IMG/VR virus record: IMGVR_UViG_3300030406_001266
Span: 1 to 34,119 of that record
DNA: 34,119 bases
DNA from: a virus
Strand: one strand, 5' to 3'
The position numbers were made by a program, and so were the translations under genes. Each line of letters opens with the position of its first letter. The first letter of the stretch is position 1. The notes beneath the pieces were generated by a model. That model was not told the origin of the DNA. It saw only the letters and a list, made by a program, of their open reading frames with translations, and did no database searches. Positions 4,501 to 34,119 of the stretch are shown piece by piece.

Positions 4501-5685
4501 ATGGAAAATAACCAAACAGATCTTGAGGAGGTAATCCAAGAGGTCGAACAAGAGAACACTGCAGAAGAAACAGTAGAGCAAGACCTAAGTAAATTTCAAA
4601 GCGCTGATGACCCAGAGGTTATCAAAGTAGATTTATCAAAACCACCAACTAATGAAGTTGAAGAAAACAACACTGACGACACAGGAGTGGCTGGAAGCAA
4701 TGAAAACTCCGAGCCCACACAAGGTGAAGACGAAGTACAAGCGCAAGCCGAAACACAAGAATCAACTGGAGTACTAGAAGAAGTAAACGAAACAGTTGAA
4801 GAGCTTAAAGAAGAAGTAAGCGAGGCTATAGATAAAGCACAAGAAGCTGGAACTCCACTACCAGAGAACGTGCAAAAGCTCATTGACTTCATGGCTGATA
4901 CTGGTGGCAGCTTGGAAGACTACGTTCGTTTAAACAGAGACGTTAAAGATATAGACGATCAAGACGCGTTGCGTGAGTATTATCAAAGAACTAAACCGCA
5001 TCTATCTTCAGACGAAGTAGAATTTTTAATGGAAGATAAATTCTCTTATGACGAAGAGCTAGATGAAGCTAAAGATATTAAAAGAAAGAAACTGGCCCTC
5101 AAAGAGCAAGTTGCCGAGGCCAAAGCCTACTTAGACAGGCAAAAGTCTAAATACTACGAAGAAATTAAAGCTGGAAGTAACCTCACTCCTGAGCAACAGA
5201 AGGCAATTGATTTTTTCAACCGATACAATAAAGAGTCAGAGCAGACAAGAAAAGTAGCTGACAAACAGAAAGCTGAGTTTACAGATCAAACAAACCGAGT
5301 TTTCAACGACAAGTTCAAAGGTTTTGAATACAACGTCGGAGAAAAAGTATACAGGTTTAATGTTAACAATGTAGATGAAGTTAAAGAAACTCAAAGCGAT
5401 ATTAGTAATTTTGTCAAAAGGTTTTTGAACAAAGAAAACACTATGTCAGATGCTAAGGGTTATCACAAAAGTTTGTTTACAGCTATGAACGCGGATGCTA
5501 TTGCTCAGCACTTTTACGAACAAGGTAAAGCAGATGCTATTAAAGATGGTGTCGCTAAAGCTAAAAACATAAACACTGAAGCCCGTAGTTCACATACAGA
5601 GCCTCAGTTTCAAAATGGTATTAAAGCTAGAGTGTTAGGCGATGATTCAGATTCTTTACGTTTCAAAATTAAAAGAAAAAAATAA
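4501..5685 (+). CDS. Capsid scaffolding / head assembly protein
   Basis: This protein probably serves as the internal scaffold on which capsid protein polymerises, then leaves or is degraded. It has 394 aa. The first 115 residues are extremely acidic and low in complexity (Glu/Asp/Gln/Thr), followed by a predicted helical, charged region (SYDEELDEAKDIKRKKLALK, and LTPEQQKAIDFFNRYNKE near residue 235). The C-terminus is basic (LRFKIKRKK), as expected for a capsid-contacting tail. There are no enzyme motifs. It sits directly between portal and capsid genes, where scaffolds are found in T7, P22 and related phages. The leader TTATATAATATTTTATC before the ATG is pure A/T apart from its last base. 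A prohead protease role is unlikely because no catalytic motif is seen. Confidence 0.8.
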   Translation: MENNQTDLEEVIQEVEQENTAEETVEQDLSKFQSADDPEVIKVDLSKPPTNEVEENNTDDTGVAGSNENSEPTQGEDEVQAQAETQESTGVLEEVNETVEELKEEVSEAIDKAQEAGTPLPENVQKLIDFMADTGGSLEDYVRLNRDVKDIDDQDALREYYQRTKPHLSSDEVEFLMEDKFSYDEELDEAKDIKRKKLALKEQVAEAKAYLDRQKSKYYEEIKAGSNLTPEQQKAIDFFNRYNKESEQTRKVADKQKAEFTDQTNRVFNDKFKGFEYNVGEKVYRFNVNNVDEVKETQSDISNFVKRFLNKENTMSDAKGYHKSLFTAMNADAIAQHFYEQGKADAIKDGVAKAKNINTEARSSHTEPQFQNGIKARVLGDDSDSLRFKIKRKK

Positions 5686-21107: not shown

Positions 21108-24100
21108 ATGTCATTAGAAAATTTAGGTACAGATGTAAAGCAGCTGTTAGTAGATTTTACAACTACAGCTAAAGCAGATAACTTTGATTTAAATATTACG
21201 CTTACAAAGTTTCCAGAGTTACAGCACGTTGATAAACAGCTTTTAGTTGATTTTATCACAACAGCTCAAGCTGACAATTTTGATTTAAACGTTACTCTTC
21301 CGAAGTTCCCAGAAATTGTAGGACAAGATGTTAGCAATGTGGGAAAGCGACAAGACCCAACAGTGTATTACGGGACACCAGTTGTTGGGTTAGACAAGTC
21401 AGAATCGCCTACGGTGTCCAAAGAGGAAGATGTTTCTTCAGATCCTATAAAGAAAGCGCTTGACGAAGAAGCTAAAGAAAAAGACGCTGTTAAAAAACAG
21501 GCGGAAAGAGAGGTAGCTAATATGTCTCCCGAGAAGCAAGAGGAGCTTTTTGGTGCTAATTGGTATATGATGCAAGAAGCTTTTAAGGTTTCTACAGTTG
21601 CAGATTTAATTAAATCAGGTGAGTACAAAAGTGAGTTACCACCTGAAACAACCGCTAGTATAGATGACGTACCAGAAAGAGGGGATGAAGGTGAGCTTGG
21701 ATTAAACTACGACTCACCTGTAATTGATCTAACTGATTTTTCCACAGTTATAAATAAAAGCGCTGCAGACGTTAGACTAGCGTTTGATAAAAGTGGTGAC
21801 TACCCTGGTCTTAGAATTATAGAAACTGGAGGTATAGGTGAAGCAGTAAGATTTATATTGCCTGACGGTACTGAGATACCTATAGATTTATACCCTACCA
21901 AGGATACTGGTAGAGGTGTTAGAGAATGGTTGTACGAAGGCACTCAATTAGGTGAAGCACAAGCCGCAAGTAGACAGCGTGTGTTAGATGAGCAGATGAA
22001 CAAGCTCAAGCAAGTAAAAGAGTGGTACGACAAAAATGATTCAAGAGAAGACATTGGACTGTTTAGAATATTAGGTAAGCGAGACGATGCATTTCATTTT
22101 TCTTTTGAAAATACTGAGTACGATGATTTAGACTCTATCAACAGGGAGCTAGAAGTTATAGGTTACGAAGTAAAAGCTCCTATTCCAGGTAGATATTTAA
22201 TATATAATAAAGAAGGAGAAGTTGTCTACAAAGGTGATGGTGCTCAAGGAGTTCAAAACTTTTTTTGGGAAAATTTAACTGAAGGGCAAATTAGCGCTCT
22301 AAAAGATAGCACAACCGAAGCTACTATTAATGCAACTAACGTATATAGAGCAAATAGAAACGAGCTATATGACAGCGTAATATCTCAAGATCCAGAAGAG
22401 CTTCTTAACTGGGGTTTAAATAATATCGTAGGACAAAAGGCTTGGCAAGGAACTGTAGTTAAAGAAGGTTCTATTTCAGCATCAAGCTTAATTCGTAATG
22501 CCGCTGAGAAAGCTGGAGTATCTGATGCCACTATAGATTTATTGCTTGGTGAAGAGTGGATGGGAAATGGAGCACGTGTAGGCACTAAAGATGGAGATGA
22601 AGCGGTTAGATTTAATCTTAGAACTTTACTTGACGATAAAGATCGCTACGGTAGAGACAAAGGTACTGGTTTAAGTATTCCTCTTGCGTTAAAAAATAAA
22701 ATACCTGAAGACGAGTTTAATATACTTCAGAACCTGTTTAACGCAGATGAAAATGGCTATACAGGTATAGTAACAGAAGATATAATTAAAGAAGAGGCTT
22801 TTCGTCAAGCCGACGAGAAGACTGCTACGTATATGTCAACACTATCGTCGCTAGATGACGCTAATGGCCCTCAATTTATACCGCTATATGATGGTAACGG
22901 TAACCCTGTACTAGACGAAAACGGTGTTCAGAAAAAACAAGAGTTTAGGCCTGAGGCTCTTTCGGCTACTATAGATGAATTACGAAGAGGATCTAATTAT
23001 CTTGATGATATAGCTAGTCAAAATGATAACTACTTAAACATGACAGGTAGTTATAAAGAACTTTTTGATGCTTATGGCTTGAAAGGAACGCAAATACAAG
23101 CTGAGTCTAAAAAAGAATTAGACGAGGTTTTGAAACAAGTTGCTGAAGCTGGATTAGGATACGAAGTAAAAGACGGTATAGTTACTGTTAGTGGACTCGA
23201 CGAAGATAAAGTTAACAAATATCAAAGATTAGTTAATGATCAAATATACAAGTCAAGAGAAGCAGCTTTACAGTGGACAGAAGGATACGACGCTTTAATG
23301 GGCGAGTACAAAACTTTTGCTAGCGACGCTCTTGATCTTGGCGTTATAACAGATAGAGAATACAACTTCGCGGATAACTTACGCGCTGATTTTTGGGGAG
23401 GTTTTAATGATATAGGTCTTAATATATCTTCTTTCTTTGGTAGCGAACAAGCTATGCGTATGAAAGAAAGCAGGCAAAGAGGCGGTGAAGCTAGAGAGCA
23501 GTTAGGTTCATATGACGAAATGATTGACGCTGGTCTTGGTTGGAGGTTTGCTGGTAGAACTATAGCTCAACAAGGAGCTAACGTGGCTGTTGCTATTGGT
23601 ACAAATATTATTTTGCCTGGAGCAGGTAGCTGGCTTGTACCTACTATGTTTGGTTTGAGTGCAGGTGGTGAAAAAAGATTTCAACTTGAGCAACAAATAG
23701 ACGCCGGAGAGTTTGCGCAGCTAGAATTATCAAGTTTAGAAAATGCTTATAAAAATGGTTTAGTAGGAAAAGCTGAGTACTTAGAAAGAAAGTCTAATCT
23801 TCACGAGACTATAGCACTAGGAGATATTGATAGAGGCACGCTGTATGCAGCTGTTGGTACCGCTGCTATCATTGAAGGTGGTATATCATACGCTATAGGT
23901 ACGAACCCTAACGCCAGAAGCGCTATTGACGCGCTTAAAGGAAGTGTAGATGATATAGCTTCAGCTATAACTACAACATCTGGTAGTAGGTTTCTTCAAA
24001 TGACTGGTAAAACTTTGAAAGAGATCGGTGGAGAGGTACTTGAAGAAGAGTTAATATACGTTGGTAATAACTTAGCAGATGGTTATTTACTAGGCGCTGA

Positions 24101-27100
24101 TGTAAAGTGGGATCAGTTTGACGATATAGCAGTTACTTCATTGCTTACAAGTGGGCCAATGAACGGCCCAGCTAACGCTATTAACTTTATAAAAACCAAC
24201 TATGTCACACGCGAAGCTAGGCAAAGTTATTTTGAAGGTAAAGCTGAGTTAGAAACGTTAAAAAAAGCGCTTACTAATGTAGACCCTAATGATACTCAAA
24301 CTATAAACTTATACCACGAAAAGATCCGTGATGTTGTTAGAACTAAGATAGCTTATGCAGACAACAACATGGAGGCTAGCGCTATAATAAATGGTACTAG
24401 AGGTTTAGAGCAATTAGTTAGAGCCGGATCTATTGAAAGTAATATAAATAGAGAGGCTGGTATTAAACCAGAAGATAGCCCTCAAAAAAAGAAAGAGAAA
24501 CTAGATTTATATAGAAAAAAATTAAGCTCTGAAAAACAACAAGAACTAGATACTAAGCTAAGCTTAATACAAGAGACGCGAGATAACATTACAGCCTCAA
24601 CTGACGTGAAGTTTCAAAAAGAAGCTCTTGGTGAGAACGGGCTTATAAAAGAACATCTTGGCGACAGAGGCCTTCGTATTGCTGATAGATTAGCTAGAAC
24701 TAACCCTGAGTTTAATTCTATGTCTAATAAAGACAAGTTCATAGCGGTTCACGACGCGTCTAAAAAACAATTTCAACAGTCTGTTGTTAATGAAATGAAA
24801 AACGACAGTGATGTTAAAAAGTTTGTTGAAGAAAAAGTATATGGTAAAGGTGGTTTTGAAGGCTCTGGAAGAACTAATAGAAAAAGAAAATTAGAAAACT
24901 CTTATTACGAGGCCTTAGGCTCTATGCTTACTGCAAAAAGAACAAAAGCAAGAGTAACATACGACAGTCAGTATCTTAATGCTAAAGATATACTTAGTCA
25001 AAAAGAACTTAGTGAAGTTCAGATTATTGAAAAAGCAAATATAAAAGAAATACAACAATACCATATTGACAACTGGGAAGATATGGGTTATACTTCTATT
25101 GAGCAAGCAGAAAAAGAAGTAAGAGACTTTGTTGACAAAGACGGTAATCCCGTAGTAGATGACTTTGGTAGCATTACTATAGGTAAAAACGGTAAGCCTA
25201 CATACTTAACTCTTAATGCTGAAAAAGTAAAAGAAAAATTAAGTCAAGGTAAGATTCTACAAGGAACAGTTTTTTCACACGAAATAAGTCACGTGATTAC
25301 TGACATGGCTATGAATGAAGCTGAGATTGTAGAATTAGCTGAAAACCTACATGATTCAATGCAAAGAACGCCTCAACTTCGACGCATCAATGCACTAGCA
25401 ATAGGCCAAATGACTAATCCTACTATCGTGGAAGATGCTAGATTAAAGGTTAAAGATCCGTCTAAACCGTACAACGCGGAGACTAATCCAATACTACCTA
25501 TGAAACAGCAGACACCACTAGCTGCTGAAGAGTACGTTCATAGAGTACAAGACTTATTGCAAGACCCTGATAATGAAGTAGCGCTAGAACAAGCTAGAAA
25601 ATCAGGTCAAGGTTTAGGTAACTTGTTTAGAAGCCTGTATGGAGGTGACTTTACTTTTAATGCAGCTGGATCTGGTTTAAACTATGTTGTAGGTTATATT
25701 GACGCCTTTAATAAGGGAGAAATATCTAGACAGGCTAAAAGAAAAATATCTAACAACATTAAATCTGACGAAGAATATTCAGAAGATATAAAGTCTGGTA
25801 AGAAAAGCTCTCAAGATGTATCAAGAGAAAAAGCAGAGGCTAGCAATAGAGTTCAAGAGTTATGGGAAAAAGGCGATGTAGCTAGCATTATTGACGAGTT
25901 TGACGGCATAAATACAGATGATGCAGCTATAGCTAAACGTAAAGGTCAAAACGTAGAAAGAAAAAAATCTTTACTAGAATCAATATTAAAGCCATACTCT
26001 AGAGTTGCAGGCTTTAATATGGAAGATGGTAAGATGGCGCTAATGACGCATCCTAGAGGGTTCTTAGGTCTTGTGCAAGAATACAATATAGAAAAAGGTG
26101 TACCACTTGCAGCGTGGTTAAACAAGTATTTACCAGAAAGAGTTAAAGAAATAGTAGGAACTATAGGCGCAGACGGTCAGTTTACTGTAGATATAGACTC
26201 GCCAGCAGTTGTAGCTGTAGCTGATGACAATGACGGCGTTTCACATGAGATGGAACGTAAGGGTAAAGGTGTAAAGCTTTGGACGAGGTTTGGAAGCAAA
26301 GGTAACAGCATACATAATAGTATAATGGCTGATGTCATTAGCGGTGATATCAAGGTTGATGGTAAAAACTACAAAACATTAGGTGGCAAAAGATTCTACG
26401 AGGTTATGGATATGATGGGTATAAACCCTGTTAATAAAGCTGGTAAGCCTAAGACCGGTAACCTAGATCAGACTGATGTGTCAAACGCTCAGCGTTGGAT
26501 ACAGCAACATATTAGCGAGATACGTAACGCTATAATACCTCAACACTCTACAACTAAGATGGTTAAGAACCCTAATACAGGGAAGCTCGAACCAAGACCA
26601 GATAAAGCTATAGGCATACCTCAAGTATTACTTAACTCAGAGCTATTTACTAAGCATACTAGAAAAGATAATCTCACTGGTTATTCTTTTAATGACGGCT
26701 TAACAGACGCTGAGATATTGTCTATGTTTGGTGTAACTAAAAGAGGCGAGCCGAATATTAAGCTTAAAGATGACAGAAACATTGGCCAAAGAATAAAAGC
26801 CTTAGTAAAGCTAACTGACATGGCTATGACTAACCAAGGTGCTAGAGTAGCTATGGAAAACAGAGGTGATCACATCTCAGAAATACTACACTTAGCAGAT
26901 GGTAGATCGTTAAACCTGTATTCTCAAGACGTTGATCCTACTGGTAAGGGTATTATTGACATGTTAGTTGGAGATACTATAGAAGGTTTCCAAGATGAGG
27001 CCAAGCTAGTTGCCGATATAGCTCTTGATGTTGGTTATAACACACCAAAGTTTCATCAAAGAGTTGCAGAAGAAGGTATATCAATATCTGTGCTCCAATA

Positions 27101-30100
27101 TTTAGAGTCTATTAACTTTGAAAAATATTTTGCTAAAGGTGATCAAGGTTTAAAAGATCCTTTACGTAGTGCTATAGGTACTGGTAAATTCAAGCCTGGC
27201 GCAGAGGCTTTGCTTGGCAAGTTTTTTGAAAATAAAATTGACGCTGATGACGTGACTGCTAACAAGCAGCTTGCAGCGGGCGCTAAAAGCTTAATTAAAA
27301 GTTTACCCGCGCCTTTAGTAAAAGCGTTAGGCTCACAATTCTTTGGCTTATTAGGTAGCAACAGAGGTTTAAATAAAAACAAAAACCAAGACGTATACGA
27401 CGCTTACGAAGCTAAAACAAAAGGAGTAGTAGCTCAACCTGGAATAGTGCTGTTAAATGCTAATACAGGTTTAATGCTAAAAATACAAAGAATATTAGTA
27501 GATCCTAATTTAAACGCTAAGCAAAAAGAAGCTAGAGTTAAACAGCTTTACGGAAAAGATATTGATGCTGCTAATGAAAACAATGCTGTGGCTTTGAAGC
27601 AAGTGTTAGAAGCTATGTCTAAAACCACTGATACCAATGCTAGACTTGGTATTATGCGTATGTTTGAAATAGGTTCGAACAACACTCTTGGCATTAGAGG
27701 TTTAACAACTCTTGACGCTATACAGTACACAGACGTTTCTCAGGCTAGATATATAGGCACGCATAAGAAGACAGGTAAAGTAGTTCATTTTGCTAGTAAT
27801 CCTGATGCTAAGCAAAAAAATATTTATGATATAGATCTTAATACTAAGCACCCTAATTATGCTGCGGCTGAGTCCTATGCAGACAGAAAATCTATAGCTG
27901 CTAGCCTTACTGAAAAAGGTAATCGTAAGAAAAACTATACAGACGAGAAAATACAAAAGCATAAGCAGAAAATACTAGAAGACGCTTTAAAGTTTAAAGG
28001 AGAGCACGTTACACCTAGCGCTAATACTCAACGCCTCATGGTTGAAGCGCTGCTTCAAGCTTGGTACGACGGTGGTTTTGACATGGCTACAGCTAGTGAA
28101 GAGCTAACCGCAAACTTTGCTCAAACATTAGGCGCTAAAGTTTTTAGTGATCTTCAAGACGATGCTTTAGGTACTACTAGCACGGCGGATCAACTGCGTA
28201 TGCTAGCTATACAAAATGACGTTAATATAGACGAGTTTGTAGATACTAGAGAAGGTCAAGCTTTTTCTAGTTACGTTAGAAGCTTTATAACTAACAAAGA
28301 AACTTTAAGGCAGGTACAAGAAAATATATCTAAAGATAAATCTGCTAAGTTCCCTGAGTTAAAAGAAAGATTAAGCTCTATACTAGATGATAGCGTATCA
28401 GATATTGAGTTGCAAAAAACTGCAACAGATATTCGTAAAGCAAACAACAAACGCTCTCAAGATACTTCTCCAAAAGGCATGACTGCTTGGGACTTTGATG
28501 ATACTCTAGCTACTACAAAGTCTAATGTTATATTTACTAAAGATGGTGAAACTAAAATAGTAAGCGCTGAAGATTTTGCTACACAAGGTGCTGACTTAGT
28601 AGCTGAAGGTTGGACACCAGATTTCTCTGAGTTTAACAAAGTAACTGGTGGTGAGCCAGGTCCTATGTTTGACAAAGCTATGGAGCGTGCTAGAAAATAT
28701 GGTACAGAAGATACATATATACTTACAGCTAGAGCACCTGAAGCTGCGCCAGCTATTAAAGAGTTTTTAGATGCGCTAGGTTTAAACATACCACTTGAAA
28801 ATATTACAGGTTTAGGCAACTCAACTGGTGAAGCAAAAGCTAGATGGTTATTAGATAAGCACGCTCAAGGATACAACGACATTGCATTTGCTGATGACGC
28901 TATGCAAAACGTTGAAGCTGTTAGAAAAGTCTTTGACGAAAATGATATAAAGGGTAAAGTTGAACAAGCTAAAAAGAAGTTTAGTCAAGACGTTGAAGCT
29001 ACGTTTGTAGATCAAATGCTATCAGAAGGTCAATCTGAAATTGACATGCAGTTCCAAGAGGTTCTTGAAGAAACAAAAGGTATAGACAGACGTAAAACTT
29101 TCTCCGCAGTTAAGGCTAGACAGCGTGGTAAAAACAAAGGTAAATTTAAGTTTTTCTTACCACCTTCGGCAGAAGACTTCAAGGGTCTTATGTACTCGTT
29201 TATGGGCAAAGGTGAGATAGGTGAAAAGCATCACGCTTGGTTTAAAAAGAATTTATTTGATCCTTATTCAAAAGGTATGATGAGAATAAACTCTTTAAAT
29301 CAAGAAATATCTAACAATATAAGATCACTTAAAAAATCTATACCTGGTATAAAAAATAAACTACGTGATAAAGTTGGTGACACAAACTTTACAAACGAGC
29401 AAGCTATAAGAGTTTTTAACTGGAATAGGAACGGAGTTGAAGTACCTGGTTTGTCACGAGCTGATTTAAACACGCTTGTAAAAGCTGTTAACAACGATGC
29501 TGATTTAAAGATATTTGCTGACAACGCCTCAGACATAGCTAATAAAATAGGTGTTGATCAAAACCCAGGCGTAGCTTGGTTAGCTGGATCTGTTTCTTCT
29601 GACATGAATGATATGTTACAGGACTCTAGAGCGGCGCTGCTGCAAGAGTTTAATAGTAATGCTGACGCTGTTTTTAGCGACAAGAACTTAAATAAAATTG
29701 AAGCTATATACGGTAGTAATTTTAGAGAAGCTCTTGAAGACGTCTTGTATCGTATGAAAACTGGTAGCACTAGGCCGCAAGGACAAAGTAGAATCATGAA
29801 TAACTTCATGAACTGGATTAATGGTTCTATTGGTACGACTATGTTTTTTAACGCTAGATCTGCAATGTTGCAGATGGTATCTAACGTTAACTTTATAAAC
29901 TGGCATGACAATAATCCACTTAAAGCGGCTAAAGCCTTTGCGAATCAAAAGCAATATTGGTCTGACGTTGCAATGATATTTAACTCGGATTATCTTAAAC
30001 AACGTCGTGGTGGGTTAGGTACTGACTTAAACGCAGCTGAGTTACTAAAAGACTTACAGCAAGGTGATAAGCCTATGAAGACTGCTATAGCACACTTGTT

Positions 30101-31370
30101 GCAATTAGGTTTTACACCTACTCAAATTGCTGACAGCTTGGCTATCGCTACTGGTGGTGCTACTATGTACAGAAACAGGGTTAATTCCTATATAGAGCAA
30201 GGTATGAGTCAGCAAGAGGCTGAGTCGAAAGCTTTTGAAGATATGAAAGAGATATCTGAAGAAACTCAACAGTCTACTAGACCAGATAAAATATCTCAAC
30301 AACAAGCTTCACCTCTTGGTAAGTTGATATTAGCTTTCCAAAACACACCTATGCAGTATAATAGAATTATTAAGCGAGCTGCTCAAGACTGGGTTAATGG
30401 TAGAGGCGATTGGAAACAGCACTTATCTAAGATAGCTTACTATGGCGGTGTTCAAAGTATGATATTCTACGGGCTTCAAACAGCGTTGTGGTCTAGCTTA
30501 TTTGGCGATGACGATGAAGAAGATCTAGAAGAAAAACAAGGTAGAGTGCTTAATGGCATGACAGACAGTTTACTACGTGGTGGTGGTATTGGTGGCGCGG
30601 TTCTAGCTACTGCAAAGAATACCATATTAGAGTTTATAGAGCAAGATGCTAAGAACGATGACGGTATATTCTACACAGATCCTAACCACGCATACACTAT
30701 AATCGAAGCCCTTAACTTGTCACCGCCAATTGGTATTAAAGCTAGAAAGTTATACAGCGCTACGCAGACGTGGCAGTTTAATAGAGATGTAATTGATCAT
30801 ATGTCTAAAACAGATATTGATAATCCTATTTATGACGCTACATTTTCGGCTACAGAAGCTTTAACTAATATACCGCTTAGTAGATTATATAACAAGTATC
30901 AAAATATATCTGAGGCTATGAACTCTGATAATGAAACTTGGCAGCGTGTAGCTATGTTATTAGGTTGGAGCCGCTGGAGTTTTGGTATACAGAATACCGA
31001 CGTTATGACAGCTAAGCAGGAGGTTAAAGAAATTAAAGCTAAAGAAGCAGAGGAAAGAAGAGAGCAAAAGAAACAAGAGAAAGAAGCTGAAAGGCAAGCT
31101 GAAAACGAGGCTGTAATTCAAGGGCACATTGAAGAACAAAAGCAACAACGTGAAGACGGTATATCAGAAGATAAAATCACTTGTGCCGCTGTTAAACGCA
31201 ATGGCGAAAGATGTGGTAAGACGGTTCTGCCTGGTCAAACATACTGTACTGTACACGAACAAGTTGAGCAACAAGACAATGAAGTTCAATGCTCACATAT
31301 AAAATCAAATGGCGATCGCTGTAAAATGAAAACAAAAAATAAATCAGGAAAATGTTACTACCACGATTAA
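21108..31370 (+). CDS. Giant polyvalent ejection protein with zincin-like and HAD-like domains
   Basis: This 3420-aa protein takes the place of T7 gp16. Visible in order: a 32-aa tandem repeat at residues 11-70; two hydrophobic helical regions (about 820-855 and 910-932) that could insert in membranes; a zinc metallopeptidase motif HEISH (His1391, Glu1392, His1395) with a possible third ligand at Glu1474/Glu1475; a segment FLGLVQEYNIEKGVPLAAW (about 1652-1670) reminiscent of sigma region 2; and a complete HAD phosphatase set (DFDDT at 2462-2466, Thr2540 in ILTAR, Lys2577, DD at 2596-2597). A long C-terminal region (about 2890-3280) includes LGKLILAFQNTPMQYNRII, which I recognise from giant proteins of marine phages and tentatively relate to the large polyvalent protein-associated domains. 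Two Cys/His knuckles end it (C3359, C3369, C3380, H3383; C3395, C3405, C3416, H3419). It is probably packaged in the capsid and injected with the DNA. No lytic transglycosylase motif was seen. Confidence 0.8.
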   Translation: MSLENLGTDVKQLLVDFTTTAKADNFDLNITLTKFPELQHVDKQLLVDFITTAQADNFDLNVTLPKFPEIVGQDVSNVGKRQDPTVYYGTPVVGLDKSESPTVSKEEDVSSDPIKKALDEEAKEKDAVKKQAEREVANMSPEKQEELFGANWYMMQEAFKVSTVADLIKSGEYKSELPPETTASIDDVPERGDEGELGLNYDSPVIDLTDFSTVINKSAADVRLAFDKSGDYPGLRIIETGGIGEAVRFILPDGTEIPIDLYPTKDTGRGVREWLYEGTQLGEAQAASRQRVLDEQMNKLKQVKEWYDKNDSREDIGLFRILGKRDDAFHFSFENTEYDDLDSINRELEVIGYEVKAPIPGRYLIYNKEGEVVYKGDGAQGVQNFFWENLTEGQISALKDSTTEATINATNVYRANRNELYDSVISQDPEELLNWGLNNIVGQKAWQGTVVKEGSISASSLIRNAAEKAGVSDATIDLLLGEEWMGNGARVGTKDGDEAVRFNLRTLLDDKDRYGRDKGTGLSIPLALKNKIPEDEFNILQNLFNADENGYTGIVTEDIIKEEAFRQADEKTATYMSTLSSLDDANGPQFIPLYDGNGNPVLDENGVQKKQEFRPEALSATIDELRRGSNYLDDIASQNDNYLNMTGSYKELFDAYGLKGTQIQAESKKELDEVLKQVAEAGLGYEVKDGIVTVSGLDEDKVNKYQRLVNDQIYKSREAALQWTEGYDALMGEYKTFASDALDLGVITDREYNFADNLRADFWGGFNDIGLNISSFFGSEQAMRMKESRQRGGEAREQLGSYDEMIDAGLGWRFAGRTIAQQGANVAVAIGTNIILPGAGSWLVPTMFGLSAGGEKRFQLEQQIDAGEFAQLELSSLENAYKNGLVGKAEYLERKSNLHETIALGDIDRGTLYAAVGTAAIIEGGISYAIGTNPNARSAIDALKGSVDDIASAITTTSGSRFLQMTGKTLKEIGGEVLEEELIYVGNNLADGYLLGADVKWDQFDDIAVTSLLTSGPMNGPANAINFIKTNYVTREARQSYFEGKAELETLKKALTNVDPNDTQTINLYHEKIRDVVRTKIAYADNNMEASAIINGTRGLEQLVRAGSIESNINREAGIKPEDSPQKKKEKLDLYRKKLSSEKQQELDTKLSLIQETRDNITASTDVKFQKEALGENGLIKEHLGDRGLRIADRLARTNPEFNSMSNKDKFIAVHDASKKQFQQSVVNEMKNDSDVKKFVEEKVYGKGGFEGSGRTNRKRKLENSYYEALGSMLTAKRTKARVTYDSQYLNAKDILSQKELSEVQIIEKANIKEIQQYHIDNWEDMGYTSIEQAEKEVRDFVDKDGNPVVDDFGSITIGKNGKPTYLTLNAEKVKEKLSQGKILQGTVFSHEISHVITDMAMNEAEIVELAENLHDSMQRTPQLRRINALAIGQMTNPTIVEDARLKVKDPSKPYNAETNPILPMKQQTPLAAEEYVHRVQDLLQDPDNEVALEQARKSGQGLGNLFRSLYGGDFTFNAAGSGLNYVVGYIDAFNKGEISRQAKRKISNNIKSDEEYSEDIKSGKKSSQDVSREKAEASNRVQELWEKGDVASIIDEFDGINTDDAAIAKRKGQNVERKKSLLESILKPYSRVAGFNMEDGKMALMTHPRGFLGLVQEYNIEKGVPLAAWLNKYLPERVKEIVGTIGADGQFTVDIDSPAVVAVADDNDGVSHEMERKGKGVKLWTRFGSKGNSIHNSIMADVISGDIKVDGKNYKTLGGKRFYEVMDMMGINPVNKAGKPKTGNLDQTDVSNAQRWIQQHISEIRNAIIPQHSTTKMVKNPNTGKLEPRPDKAIGIPQVLLNSELFTKHTRKDNLTGYSFNDGLTDAEILSMFGVTKRGEPNIKLKDDRNIGQRIKALVKLTDMAMTNQGARVAMENRGDHISEILHLADGRSLNLYSQDVDPTGKGIIDMLVGDTIEGFQDEAKLVADIALDVGYNTPKFHQRVAEEGISISVLQYLESINFEKYFAKGDQGLKDPLRSAIGTGKFKPGAEALLGKFFENKIDADDVTANKQLAAGAKSLIKSLPAPLVKALGSQFFGLLGSNRGLNKNKNQDVYDAYEAKTKGVVAQPGIVLLNANTGLMLKIQRILVDPNLNAKQKEARVKQLYGKDIDAANENNAVALKQVLEAMSKTTDTNARLGIMRMFEIGSNNTLGIRGLTTLDAIQYTDVSQARYIGTHKKTGKVVHFASNPDAKQKNIYDIDLNTKHPNYAAAESYADRKSIAASLTEKGNRKKNYTDEKIQKHKQKILEDALKFKGEHVTPSANTQRLMVEALLQAWYDGGFDMATASEELTANFAQTLGAKVFSDLQDDALGTTSTADQLRMLAIQNDVNIDEFVDTREGQAFSSYVRSFITNKETLRQVQENISKDKSAKFPELKERLSSILDDSVSDIELQKTATDIRKANNKRSQDTSPKGMTAWDFDDTLATTKSNVIFTKDGETKIVSAEDFATQGADLVAEGWTPDFSEFNKVTGGEPGPMFDKAMERARKYGTEDTYILTARAPEAAPAIKEFLDALGLNIPLENITGLGNSTGEAKARWLLDKHAQGYNDIAFADDAMQNVEAVRKVFDENDIKGKVEQAKKKFSQDVEATFVDQMLSEGQSEIDMQFQEVLEETKGIDRRKTFSAVKARQRGKNKGKFKFFLPPSAEDFKGLMYSFMGKGEIGEKHHAWFKKNLFDPYSKGMMRINSLNQEISNNIRSLKKSIPGIKNKLRDKVGDTNFTNEQAIRVFNWNRNGVEVPGLSRADLNTLVKAVNNDADLKIFADNASDIANKIGVDQNPGVAWLAGSVSSDMNDMLQDSRAALLQEFNSNADAVFSDKNLNKIEAIYGSNFREALEDVLYRMKTGSTRPQGQSRIMNNFMNWINGSIGTTMFFNARSAMLQMVSNVNFINWHDNNPLKAAKAFANQKQYWSDVAMIFNSDYLKQRRGGLGTDLNAAELLKDLQQGDKPMKTAIAHLLQLGFTPTQIADSLAIATGGATMYRNRVNSYIEQGMSQQEAESKAFEDMKEISEETQQSTRPDKISQQQASPLGKLILAFQNTPMQYNRIIKRAAQDWVNGRGDWKQHLSKIAYYGGVQSMIFYGLQTALWSSLFGDDDEEDLEEKQGRVLNGMTDSLLRGGGIGGAVLATAKNTILEFIEQDAKNDDGIFYTDPNHAYTIIEALNLSPPIGIKARKLYSATQTWQFNRDVIDHMSKTDIDNPIYDATFSATEALTNIPLSRLYNKYQNISEAMNSDNETWQRVAMLLGWSRWSFGIQNTDVMTAKQEVKEIKAKEAEERREQKKQEKEAERQAENEAVIQGHIEEQKQQREDGISEDKITCAAVKRNGERCGKTVLPGQTYCTVHEQVEQQDNEVQCSHIKSNGDRCKMKTKNKSGKCYYHD
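21138..21314 (+). repeat. Tandem 32-aa repeat at the N-terminus of the giant protein
   Basis: Two copies, with a period of 96 bases, begin at the Lys codons 21138 and 21234. They share KQLLVDF, a (T/I)TTA step, ADNFDLN and KFPE at the same spacing. The DNA has drifted at silent sites (for example CTGTTAGTA against CTTTTAGTT), so the duplication is old and the protein pattern has been kept. Confidence 0.85.
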
Positions 31371-32397: not shown

Positions 32398-32423
32398 ATG
32401 GCTTACACTCAAAAAAATAATCC
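32398..32423 (+). repeat. Copy 1 of 26-bp start-codon repeat encoding the MAYTQKNNP tag
   Basis: These 26 bases, beginning at the ATG, are identical to 32654-32679. The two genes diverge completely after the tag, so the repeat marks a shared N-terminal peptide rather than a gene duplication. Confidence 0.9.
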
Positions 32424-32652
32424 GTTTAAAAAAAATAGACCTGATAAAATTAATATTTTAAAACGAAAGATTCAGCAGCAAAGAGCGTTACAAGACCCTA
32501 ATTTAGAAGGTGCAAGTCAAAAAGATTTAGATAAAGCATTGAATAAAGAACTTAAGTATTTAAAAAAGCTTAATAAACTTGAGAGCAAGGAAGGTTTAGA
32601 GATAACTAAGCATAGTCACGATTACGAAGGAGAATCAAATATAAGAATATAA
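32398..32652 (+). CDS. Small basic helical protein with MAYTQKNNPF tag
   Basis: This 84-aa protein starts at the ATG 2 bases after the barrel gene stop; an earlier in-frame ATG at 32368 lies inside that gene and is rejected. The first ten residues, MAYTQKNNPF, are identical to those of the next gene. The rest is Lys-rich and helical, probably a short coiled coil (NILKRKIQQQRALQDPNL, then LDKALNKELKYLKKLNKLES). No catalytic motif is seen. Two bases, counting only one free base, separate it from the next ATG. It may be a minor virion or DNA-associated protein; function not recognised. Confidence 0.7.
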   Translation: MAYTQKNNPFKKNRPDKINILKRKIQQQRALQDPNLEGASQKDLDKALNKELKYLKKLNKLESKEGLEITKHSHDYEGESNIRI

Positions 32653-32653
32653 A

Positions 32654-32679
32654 ATGGCTTACACTCAAAAAAATAATCC
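32654..32679 (+). repeat. Copy 2 of 26-bp start-codon repeat encoding the MAYTQKNNP tag
   Basis: Identical over 26 bases to 32398-32423, including the codon choices, and beginning exactly at the start codon. Perfect DNA identity inside otherwise unrelated genes points to recent copying or gene conversion of the tag. Confidence 0.9.
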
Positions 32680-33037
32680 TTTTTCAGTAACATCATGTGG
32701 TAGGCGTAGAGCCGGTGGTATAGGCTCTGGCTTTAAAATGGTCGATGACTCTCCACTTGAAAAACGAAAGCGTAAGCGCAAGCGTAAACCCGACGTACGT
32801 AAAACTACTAAAGGTAAAAATCGAAACTTTCGTACCGTAAAAGAAGGAGCTGGTATGACAGCTGCTGGTGTACGTAAATACAGAGCTAAAAACCCAGGAA
32901 GTAAATTAAAGACAGCCGTTACAGGTAAGGTAAAACCAGGTAGCAAGGCTGCTAAACGTAGAAAATCGTTCTGCGCTAGATCAAAAGGCTGGACCGGAGA
33001 AAGAGGTAAAGCTGCTAGACGTAGATGGAAATGTTAA
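32654..33037 (+). CDS. Small Lys/Arg-rich protein with MAYTQKNNPF tag
   Basis: This 127-aa, strongly basic protein has the MAYTQKNNPF tag, then SVTSCGRRRAGGIGSGFKMV, a highly basic patch (RKRKRKRKPDVRK) and a conserved-looking C-terminal half: GMTAAGVRKYRAKNPGSKLK, SKAAKRRKSFCARSKGWTG and a terminal RRRWKC. I recognise that C-terminal pattern from small proteins spread through marine phages (tentatively the DUF6321 family). The two Cys (in FCAR and the last residue) recur in that family. Charge and size suit DNA or RNA binding, for example condensing DNA in the head, but this is inference. The start follows the previous stop by one base. Confidence 0.75.
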   Translation: MAYTQKNNPFSVTSCGRRRAGGIGSGFKMVDDSPLEKRKRKRKRKPDVRKTTKGKNRNFRTVKEGAGMTAAGVRKYRAKNPGSKLKTAVTGKVKPGSKAAKRRKSFCARSKGWTGERGKAARRRWKC

Positions 33038-33048
33038 AATAAATAATC

Positions 33049-33072
33049 ATGGCATTTAAAATGAAATCACCT
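33049..33072 (+). repeat. Copy 1 of 24-bp start-codon repeat encoding the MAFKMKSP tag
   Basis: These 24 bases from the ATG are identical to 34047-34070, while the following codons differ. They encode MAFKMKSP. Confidence 0.9.
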
Positions 33073-33222
33073 ATGACAGGTAAGATCAGCGGCCCATGCA
33101 AGGCTGCTGCAAAGCGTAAGTTTAAAGTATGGCCTAGTGCTTATGCTTCTGGTTGGGGTGTACGTTGCACGAAAGCTGGTGGCCCTGGTAAAATGGGTAA
33201 AAGTAAGAAAAAGAAAAAGTAA
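33049..33222 (+). CDS. 57-aa basic protein with MAFKMKSP tag and VWPSAYASG motif
   Basis: This short gene was found by reading from the ATG at 33049 to TAA at 33220-33222. The product starts MAFKMKSPMTGKISG and continues CKAAAKRKFKVWPSAYASG, then VRCTKAGG and a Lys-only tail. The VWPSAYASG block flanked by two Cys is a pattern I recognise from small marine-phage proteins of unknown function. The stop overlaps the next start (TAATG at 33220-33224), so translation is probably coupled to the phosphatase gene. The first eight residues are shared exactly with the gene starting at 34047. No function is assigned; a nucleic-acid or virion role fits the charge. Confidence 0.78.
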   Translation: MAFKMKSPMTGKISGPCKAAAKRKFKVWPSAYASGWGVRCTKAGGPGKMGKSKKKKK

Positions 33223-33806
33223 TGTCTAAGTTCCTAAAAGGATACAGCGTAGATAAGTTTAAAAGCAAAAAGCCACCTAGCAATAACTCTTTTGATACGG
33301 CTCAAGAGATCAAGCAGCTGGCTAAAATACCTATGAACAAAAAGTTTGTGGTAGAAAAAGACAATGTGTTTTCTACATTTAAGAAGGTATCTAAATCAAA
33401 GGGTGTTGAATACCCTGGTGAAGATGTTAAACAGCTTATCGACGAGTCTGAGCCTTTTATTATGGAGCTTAAGAACCACTTTGACAGACCTAGACCTAAA
33501 GTTATAGCTAAAAAAATGAATATTGAGCTTGATGATATTGAGCTTAAAACAATGAAGACACCGTCATATCCTTCAGGTCATTCTATACAAGGTCATTTAA
33601 TTGGTAATTATTTAGCGGCTAAAAACCCAAGGGCTAAATCAGCTTTTATAAAAGCAGCTAAAGATATATCTTATAGTAGAAATGTAGCGCATGCTCACTA
33701 CAAGTCTGATTCAAGGTTTGGAGACGAGATAGGTAGAGACATGTTTAAATTTATAAAGCAAAATGGCAATATACAGAGCAACACCAACAAAAAAGAAAAA
33801 GACTAA
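33222..33806 (+). CDS. Soluble PAP2-type (acid phosphatase/haloperoxidase superfamily) phosphatase
   Basis: This 194-aa protein carries the complete three-part PAP2 signature K-x6-RP / PSGH / SR-x5-H-x3-D: Lys84 with Arg91-Pro92 (KNHFDRPRP), PSGH at 117-120 (PSYPSGHS), and Ser152-Arg153 with His159 and Asp163 (SRNVAHAHYKSD). His159 would be the nucleophile that forms a phospho-histidine and His120 the acid. Unlike lipid-phosphate phosphatases it shows no transmembrane segments and no signal peptide, so it is probably a cytoplasmic or virion enzyme similar in size to the soluble class A acid phosphatases. It starts inside the TAATG overlap with the previous gene, and its last 44 bases overlap the next. 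The substrate is unknown; phosphate salvage or removal of phosphates from nucleotides or lipids is possible. Confidence 0.85.
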   Translation: MSKFLKGYSVDKFKSKKPPSNNSFDTAQEIKQLAKIPMNKKFVVEKDNVFSTFKKVSKSKGVEYPGEDVKQLIDESEPFIMELKNHFDRPRPKVIAKKMNIELDDIELKTMKTPSYPSGHSIQGHLIGNYLAAKNPRAKSAFIKAAKDISYSRNVAHAHYKSDSRFGDEIGRDMFKFIKQNGNIQSNTNKKEKD

Positions 33807-34047
33807 AAAGTCTATTGAGTGGAACGACTCAGATGCTCCTGATGCCAAAGGTAAATTTAAAGAGTTATCGCCATCAGCGCTAGCGTCGTGGTTAATTAAA
33901 ACTAGAAAAGGTAATTTATCTAAGATCATTAGTAGCCTTAATCAGCAGTACGTTTTTAACAGACAAAAGAAACCTAGCTACGCTCGCAAAATGAAAACAG
34001 TAATGAACATTGTTCGTAAGCGTTTAGGTAAAAAGAAAGATAAGTAA
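33763..34047 (+). CDS. Conserved small basic hypothetical protein
   Basis: This 94-aa protein starts MAIYRATPTKKKKTKKSIEW and contains NDSDAPDAKGKFKELSPSAL, then ASWLIKTRKGNLSKIISSLN and YARKMKTVMNIVRKRLGKKK. I recognise this series from marine phage genomes but know no function. The 44-bp overlap with the phosphatase gene is unusually long for this window; because the protein reads well from the first Met (RATPTKKKKTKK is family-like), I keep that start. No later in-frame ATG occurs before the conserved SIEWND segment. The stop overlaps the next ATG (TAATG at 34045-34049). The charge and the helical C-terminus suggest binding to nucleic acid or to another virion protein. Confidence 0.68.
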   Translation: MAIYRATPTKKKKTKKSIEWNDSDAPDAKGKFKELSPSALASWLIKTRKGNLSKIISSLNQQYVFNRQKKPSYARKMKTVMNIVRKRLGKKKDK

Positions 34048-34070
34048 TGGCATTTAAAATGAAATCACCT
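34047..34070 (+). repeat. Copy 2 of 24-bp start-codon repeat encoding the MAFKMKSP tag
   Basis: Identical over 24 bases to 33049-33072, beginning at the start codon; the next codon is TTA here and ATG in the other copy. Confidence 0.9.
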
Positions 34071-34119
34071 TTAACTAAAAAGTCAAAGGTTAAAGGCGGT
34101 GGAACAAAGAAGACGTGTT
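34047..34119 (+). CDS. Small basic protein with MAFKMKSP tag, cut by window end
   Basis: Only 24 codons are visible: MAFKMKSPLTKKSKVKGGG followed by TKKTC. The first eight codons are identical in DNA to those of the gene at 33049, and the visible part is Lys/Gly-rich. Its ATG shares the A of the previous stop. It is probably a further member of the tagged basic protein series; length and function are unknown. Confidence 0.65.
   Translation, partial: MAFKMKSPLTKKSKVKGGGTKKTC

Follow-up and report, generated by a model that had tools for sequence, protein, structure and literature searches.

Why should a run of otherwise unrelated small viral proteins begin with nearly the same few residues? 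This question is raised by the end of a linear IMG/VR record (IMGVR_UViG_3300030406_001266), analysed from position 1 to 34,119 and called here the window, in which four genes within 1.7 kb carry one of two short N-terminal peptides, MAYTQKNNPF (type 2) and MAFKMKSP (type 1). The initial annotation had likened these tags to the targeting peptides of phage T4 internal proteins, and it had raised both cleavage on maturation and a translation-start element as further possibilities.

Tagged Genes at the End of the Window

The tags and the genes around them are listed below.

32398..32427, plus strand: type 2 tag MAYTQKNNPF, beginning an 84-aa gene; 26 nt identical to 32654
32398..32652, plus strand: small basic protein of 84 aa with tag; body of no confident family (Pfam and PHROG matches all weak)
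32654..32710, plus strand: extended type-2 peptide MAYTQKNNPFSVTSCGRRR, kept in 37 tag-blind homologues while synonymous sites drift
32654..33037, plus strand: tagged DUF6321 protein, 127 aa (Pfam PF19846, 1.5e-10)
32750..32764, plus strand: SPLEK, internal copy of the core motif before the DUF6321 body; this motif class is enriched in tagged bodies
33049..33075, plus strand: type 1 tag MAFKMKSPM, beginning a 57-aa gene
33049..33222, plus strand: small basic protein with tag; body of the WPSAYASG type (weak matches to DUF5872 and phrog_27331)
33222..33806, plus strand: PAP2 phosphatase-like gene, no tag, TAATG overlap with its neighbour (Pfam PF01569, 3.2e-07)
33763..34047, plus strand: DAPDAKGKF-family basic protein, tag degenerate or absent (MAIYRATPTKKKK)
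34047..34073, plus strand: type 1 tag MAFKMKSPL, KGGGTKK family; gene truncated at the window end

Both pairs have been confirmed at the positions and lengths first reported, with 26 identical nucleotides (ATGGCTTACACTCAAAAAAATAATCC) at 32398 and 32654 and 24 (ATGGCATTTAAAATGAAATCACCT) at 33049 and 34047; within each pair the DNA identity begins at the ATG and ends after the tag. The window contains 54 plus-strand ORFs with an ATG start and 24 aa or more, and no further pair of them agrees at five or more of residues 2-9, which excludes chance as the origin of the window tags. Given the background codon usage, full synonymous identity would be expected by chance at ∼10% for the MAFKMK pair and ∼2% for the MAYTQKNNPF pair, so that recent local copying is possible for these pairs. 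The tagged series is interrupted by genes 33222 and 33763, which lack a clear tag. For the PAP2 gene this is general, as the tag is absent from all 26 tag-blind homologues of 33222. DAPDAKGKF homologues elsewhere bear a type 1 or a type 2 tag, and the N-terminus MAIYRATPTKKKK of 33763 may be a degenerate form. TAATG overlaps join genes 33049/33222 and 33763/34047 and suggest translational coupling. Rfam and tRNA scans were empty.

The 32654 body scores 42 bits against the DUF6321 Pfam profile (curated cut-off 28.5), and the 33049 body reaches 18.3 bits against DUF5872, below the curated cut-off of 27.5. With AlphaFold2, the 32654 protein has a pLDDT of ∼60 in the tag and of 82-90 from residue 51 on, and it is predicted to have a disordered tag and helices confined to its C-terminal half.

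Phage Lineage and Late-Gene Organization

The TerL of the window is 65% identical to that of a Manatee Spring metagenomic podovirus, and since this is the closest TerL in the comparison with Pervagoviridae and Elemovirus, the window phage represents a distinct lineage. Its capsid protein shows 44-46% identity to those of the Manatee Spring podovirus and Maribacter phage Panino; identity falls to 38% for Flavobacterium elemo phages and to 35% for Cellulophaga phi38:1. The TerL, portal and capsid genes are homologous and in the same order in the Pervagoviridae and Elemovirus relatives. Tag-bearing IMG/VR contigs have TerL proteins ∼72-90% identical to that of the window. One gene of the structural region recurs in the argument below:

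4501..5685, plus strand: acidic protein encoded between the portal gene and the major capsid gene; possible scaffold and possible docking partner

It has been found in 17 of the 18 contigs searched, and a family search gave no match.

A 66.9-kb relative has early genes on one strand and the late genes on the other, in the order tag array 2, TerL, portal, capsid, tail genes, giant gene, 31352 homologue and tag array 1. The scan recognised 7 tags in it, every one in the two late clusters that precede TerL and follow the giant gene, and none among its early-strand genes. Tag array 2 includes GroEL- and GroES-like genes: virus-encoded GroEL-like and cpn10-like genes lie within the array that precedes TerL at L542-L545 (G002), at 13.0-14.9 kb of the reversed contig. 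Two further observations concern late genes. The 3420-aa late protein of the window (21108-31370), in which Pfam detects no domain, ends in two zinc-ribbon-like repeats of a C..C..H pattern (CAAVKRNGERC...CTVH and CSHIKSNGDRC...CYYH). The major capsid gene match falls in two pieces in G003:C1:16378-17887 and G046:C1:35140-36655, which may reflect an insertion, an intron or an assembly error.

Distribution of the Motif

Judged from their sequences, the two tags are variants of one motif, approximately M-A-[FY]-x-[MQ]-K-x-[SN]-P-[FLM]-x-K, and the resemblance noted between them at the outset is borne out by chimeras that bridge both, such as MAFKQLNNPF and MAYKMKNSPL. Tags have been defined by regular expressions on ORFs called with a simple script, and the tagged genomes are all metagenomic contigs, many of them incomplete. 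Hundreds of tagged ORFs were returned by pattern scans, which used the tag itself. For an unbiased sample, loci were fetched with the untagged 31352 protein and the tag was not used. In the loci that reach 66% identity, a tag is present on 46 of the 234 unique ORFs, as compared with a mean of 1.5 and a maximum of 7 in 500 shuffles, so the enrichment that the initial annotation had proposed to look for in related marine phages is indeed found; in distant loci of the same sample, 3 of 451 ORFs are tagged (1.6 expected).

The motif is restricted to the late strand. Where a locus includes virion genes as well, 187 of 187 tags lie on the strand of the TerL, portal, MCP or giant gene and none on the opposite one. 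The type-1 DNA pattern gives 69 matches across 27 whole contigs, on one strand per contig, and its reversed control gives none in the same 27 contigs. The expectation that equivalent genes of relatives would carry the tag holds for many marine metagenomic relatives and fails for some lineages and for the cultured relatives examined, in which no tagged gene of this kind has been found. A tblastn search of isolates with three tagged proteins as queries returned no tagged match, and no exact match to the type-2 DNA pattern extended past the tag was found in bacterial genomes. An elemo head protein starting MFKMKLEGSEY has been taken as a chance resemblance.

The giant-protein tree shows tags in more than a single clade (11 changes). 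A weak correlation links the number of tags to capsid-protein relatedness (Spearman 0.35, p 0.016, without correction for phylogeny); with giant-protein relatedness it is not significant (rho 0.23). In view of the weak capsid correlation, a dependence of the tag on the capsid gene has been set aside.

Selection on the Peptide

Is the conservation that of a peptide or that of its coding DNA? A DNA- or RNA-level element, serving as an efficient translation start or as a short homology that aids gene shuffling, would leave the peptide itself without a role, and it would agree with the identical DNA of the window copies, with the lean of tag codons towards A/T endings and with the frequent GCA at codon 2. 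GCA is equally common at codon 2 of untagged MA-starting ORFs (161/229), however, and the 20 nt upstream of the tags are identical only at background level. In relatives, the synonymous-site likeness of tags is 0.67 within a genome and 0.72 between genomes, so the DNA identity of the window pairs is not the rule there. The 37 tag-blind homologues of 32654 conserve the peptide [YF]xQxx[NH]PFxVTSCGRRR: its Gln and Pro show no residue change, its Ser differs synonymously in 70% and non-synonymously in 5% of pairs, and downstream residues mostly differ in 80-90% of pairs, a divergence overstated by the ungapped comparison. In 12 of the 37, the type-2 peptide (MAYxQxNNPF form) lies ∼20 residues in, behind another N-terminus and without an adjacent start codon, which excludes an effect of start-codon context. 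Synonymous drift, the codon-2 control and the internal peptide thus rule out a translation-start or RNA element, and we give the whole DNA-level reading, including the translation start suggested initially, a very small probability. Descent of the tagged genes from recent duplicates, with only the first codons retained through divergence, appears just as remote. The tandem layout and the identical DNA of the window pairs would fit it, but the tags are common to a lineage in which giant proteins are down to ∼40% identity, the bodies belong to distinct families that are untagged elsewhere, and the synonymous divergence of the tags speaks for long-term selection. As within-genome DNA identity is not in excess, recent duplication or gene conversion has been rejected as the general cause, and it is still possible for the window pairs. 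The comparison of synonymous changes, which had been proposed to separate protein from RNA selection, has therefore come out for the protein: residues hold while synonymous sites drift, and from these sequences selection is seen to act on the peptide.

A third recurrent N-terminus, MPGSxxQNxMF, stands ahead of the internal type-2 peptide on most of the DUF6321 proteins of these 12 loci, for example L003, L004 and L309.

Cargo Proteins, Swapping and Internal Copies

The tagged bodies comprise DUF6321, WPSAYASG, KGGGTKK, DAPDAKGKF and KDYDH proteins, a small HExxH protein and many unassigned bodies. The description of the tag as borne by varied basic cargo near virion genes stands as far as unrelated late proteins are concerned; most of these are basic but not all, and in one family the median net charge is -12.5. 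The HExxH protein, a putative metallopeptidase, shows a weak fold match to minigluzincins (abylysin, selecase; E 0.2). A structure search with DUF6321 gave no match, and it is mentioned nowhere in the literature searched (DUF5872 occurs there in one paper, on an algal virus). AlphaFold2 predicts the tags with low confidence, hence as disordered, and the cargo bodies with good confidence, hence as ordered. A type-2-tagged protein of 336 aa at L301:4270-5280 contains a hydrophobic GMIPGIGEVADGIN...AAMIPGAGWAAGG stretch that looks pre-toxin-like by eye, with similar stretches in L192 and L213; this reading has no backing from any Pfam or PHROG family and has been dropped.

A single cargo family can bear either tag, the SP[FLM]xK core alone, or nothing. 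The 37 tag-blind members of the KGGGTKK family carry type 1 (8), type 2 (9), or a chimera, an SP core or nothing (20), and tag types are also mixed among DAPDAKGKF and KDYDH members. Cargo families within a genome agree on motif presence or absence in 158 of 216 pairs (mean 135, maximum 155 in 2,000 shuffles, relatedness uncorrected), and presence is mixed in 28 of 78 loci, so that it appears partly concerted. Certain lineages have the same cargos untagged, and therefore the presence of these cargos does not depend on the tag. The core also recurs within the bodies: past residue 14, [SNT]P[FLMIV]x[KR] is found 27 times in 4,064 aa of tagged array-1 proteins (shuffle mean 1.9, maximum 7), 22 times in 37,593 aa of untagged late neighbours and 5 times in 10,517 aa of window structural proteins. 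A second motif count is partly inflated by TP[VI], a motif conserved in the metallopeptidase family.

Indirect virion evidence exists for one cargo family. Gp080 of phi40:1 is annotated as a 'structural protein' by 'experimental MS/MS proteomics analysis', and it is homologous to the KDYDH cargos, which are tagged in L108 (MAFKMKSPLKRQ...) and L273 (MAYVQSNNPFKKQ...). Thus at least one cargo family is likely virion-associated in the wider phage group. The N-termini of the phi40:1 and phi38:1 copies are untagged (MAPPKKKGALSKS), so the family can reach virions by other means, and gp080 supports the virion association of the cargo rather than the role of the tag.

A Proposed Docking Tag for Late Proteins

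With roughly even confidence, we read the motif as a modular and probably multivalent docking tag that would load late proteins into or onto the virion. The tag-blind enrichment, strand restriction, synonymous drift, swapping, internal copies, concordance, predicted disorder and the gp080 homologue argue for docking; the untagged virion copy of gp080, the tagless cultured relatives examined, the weak capsid correlation and the untagged cargo lineages argue against it. Mechanistically, a motif attached to, swapped among and repeated on many unrelated late proteins of a marine phage lineage would, through the disordered N-terminus and the internal SP[FLM]xK copies, bind one shared component of virion assembly, for which the acidic 4501-5685 protein, the capsid protein and the portal are candidates. 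DNA-binding-type and enzyme cargos would thereby be loaded into or onto the particle with the tag uncleaved, and would then be delivered to the host. In its full form the proposal is held more tentatively, at somewhat below even confidence: marine flavobacterial-type phages would use a modular multivalent loading code, in which one swappable [FY]x[MQ]KxSP[FLM]xK peptide recruits unrelated proteins, the putative metallopeptidase included, into the virion for host delivery, and new cargo is gained by adding the tag.

Two other roles for the peptide are less probable. The tag may direct late proteins to a structure or protein of the host in late infection (e.g., nucleoid, membrane or a host machine) rather than to the virion, as the mostly basic cargos with their putative metallopeptidase and uncharacterised domains might suggest; every tag found lies on the structural-gene strand beside virion genes, however, and one cargo family has a virion homologue, which makes this destination unlikely. 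The SP[FLM]xK core could instead be a processing site, recognised by a protease of phage or host that would cut behind the tag as well as at the internal copies and so free small mature proteins. Internal cores are frequent at the module junctions of fused proteins, and the minigluzincin-like HExxH protein is itself tagged, yet conservation is strong on both flanks of the core (YxQxxNPFxVTSCGRRR), more than a cut site needs, and on single-domain cargos, which the tag begins, a cut would only remove the tag. We consider such processing rather improbable. Cleavage of the tag on maturation, as first envisaged, is possible but finds no support: the motif contains no acidic protease site and can be internal, and Pfam and PHROGs recognised no prohead protease in the window proteins scanned.

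If the docking proposal is true, the tag lists, by sequence alone, the proteins loaded with the genome in a widespread uncultured marine phage lineage, most of them of no known function. It would provide a simple address code for loading of the phage head or tail, comparable to the T4 and encapsulin codes yet also swappable and repeated; the discovery of cargo and heterologous loading could then be tested directly.

Comparison with Known Systems

The T4 internal proteins and Alt carry an N-terminal capsid targeting sequence (CTS) on otherwise unrelated late proteins (PMC3012670, PMC7411985). The likeness drawn initially holds in that diverse late proteins, of which several are small and basic, share only a short targeting-type N-terminal peptide; it breaks down in that the type-2 motif is also internal and the core is repeated in bodies. 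The phage tag further lacks a gp21-type cleavage site (no Glu site) and belongs to a different phage group, and packaging of its bearers is a prediction.

Encapsulin cargo-loading peptides are short and disordered, occur on unrelated cargos and bind an HK97-fold shell. The dedicated cargo-loading mechanism of encapsulins has been described (PMC8346489). The tag shares the short disordered form and the unrelated cargos, a likeness by description rather than by formal peptide comparison, but sits on phage late genes without a known receptor.

Among podovirus-type Bacteroidota phages, crassviruses store cargo proteins in capsid and tail (PMC10172136); the likeness to phicrAss001 gp45, gp46 and the RNA polymerase subunits is drawn from life style. 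These cargos are large ejection and polymerase proteins, unlike those of the window lineage, and the parts of that paper considered here note no shared terminal tag. Homology links the KDYDH cargo to gp080 of phi40:1 and phi38:1, a small basic virion protein of Pervagoviridae, itself untagged. The tag is placed here in none of these classes and is best read, by analogy, as working like the T4 CTS, the encapsulin peptides and the cargo storage of crassviruses.
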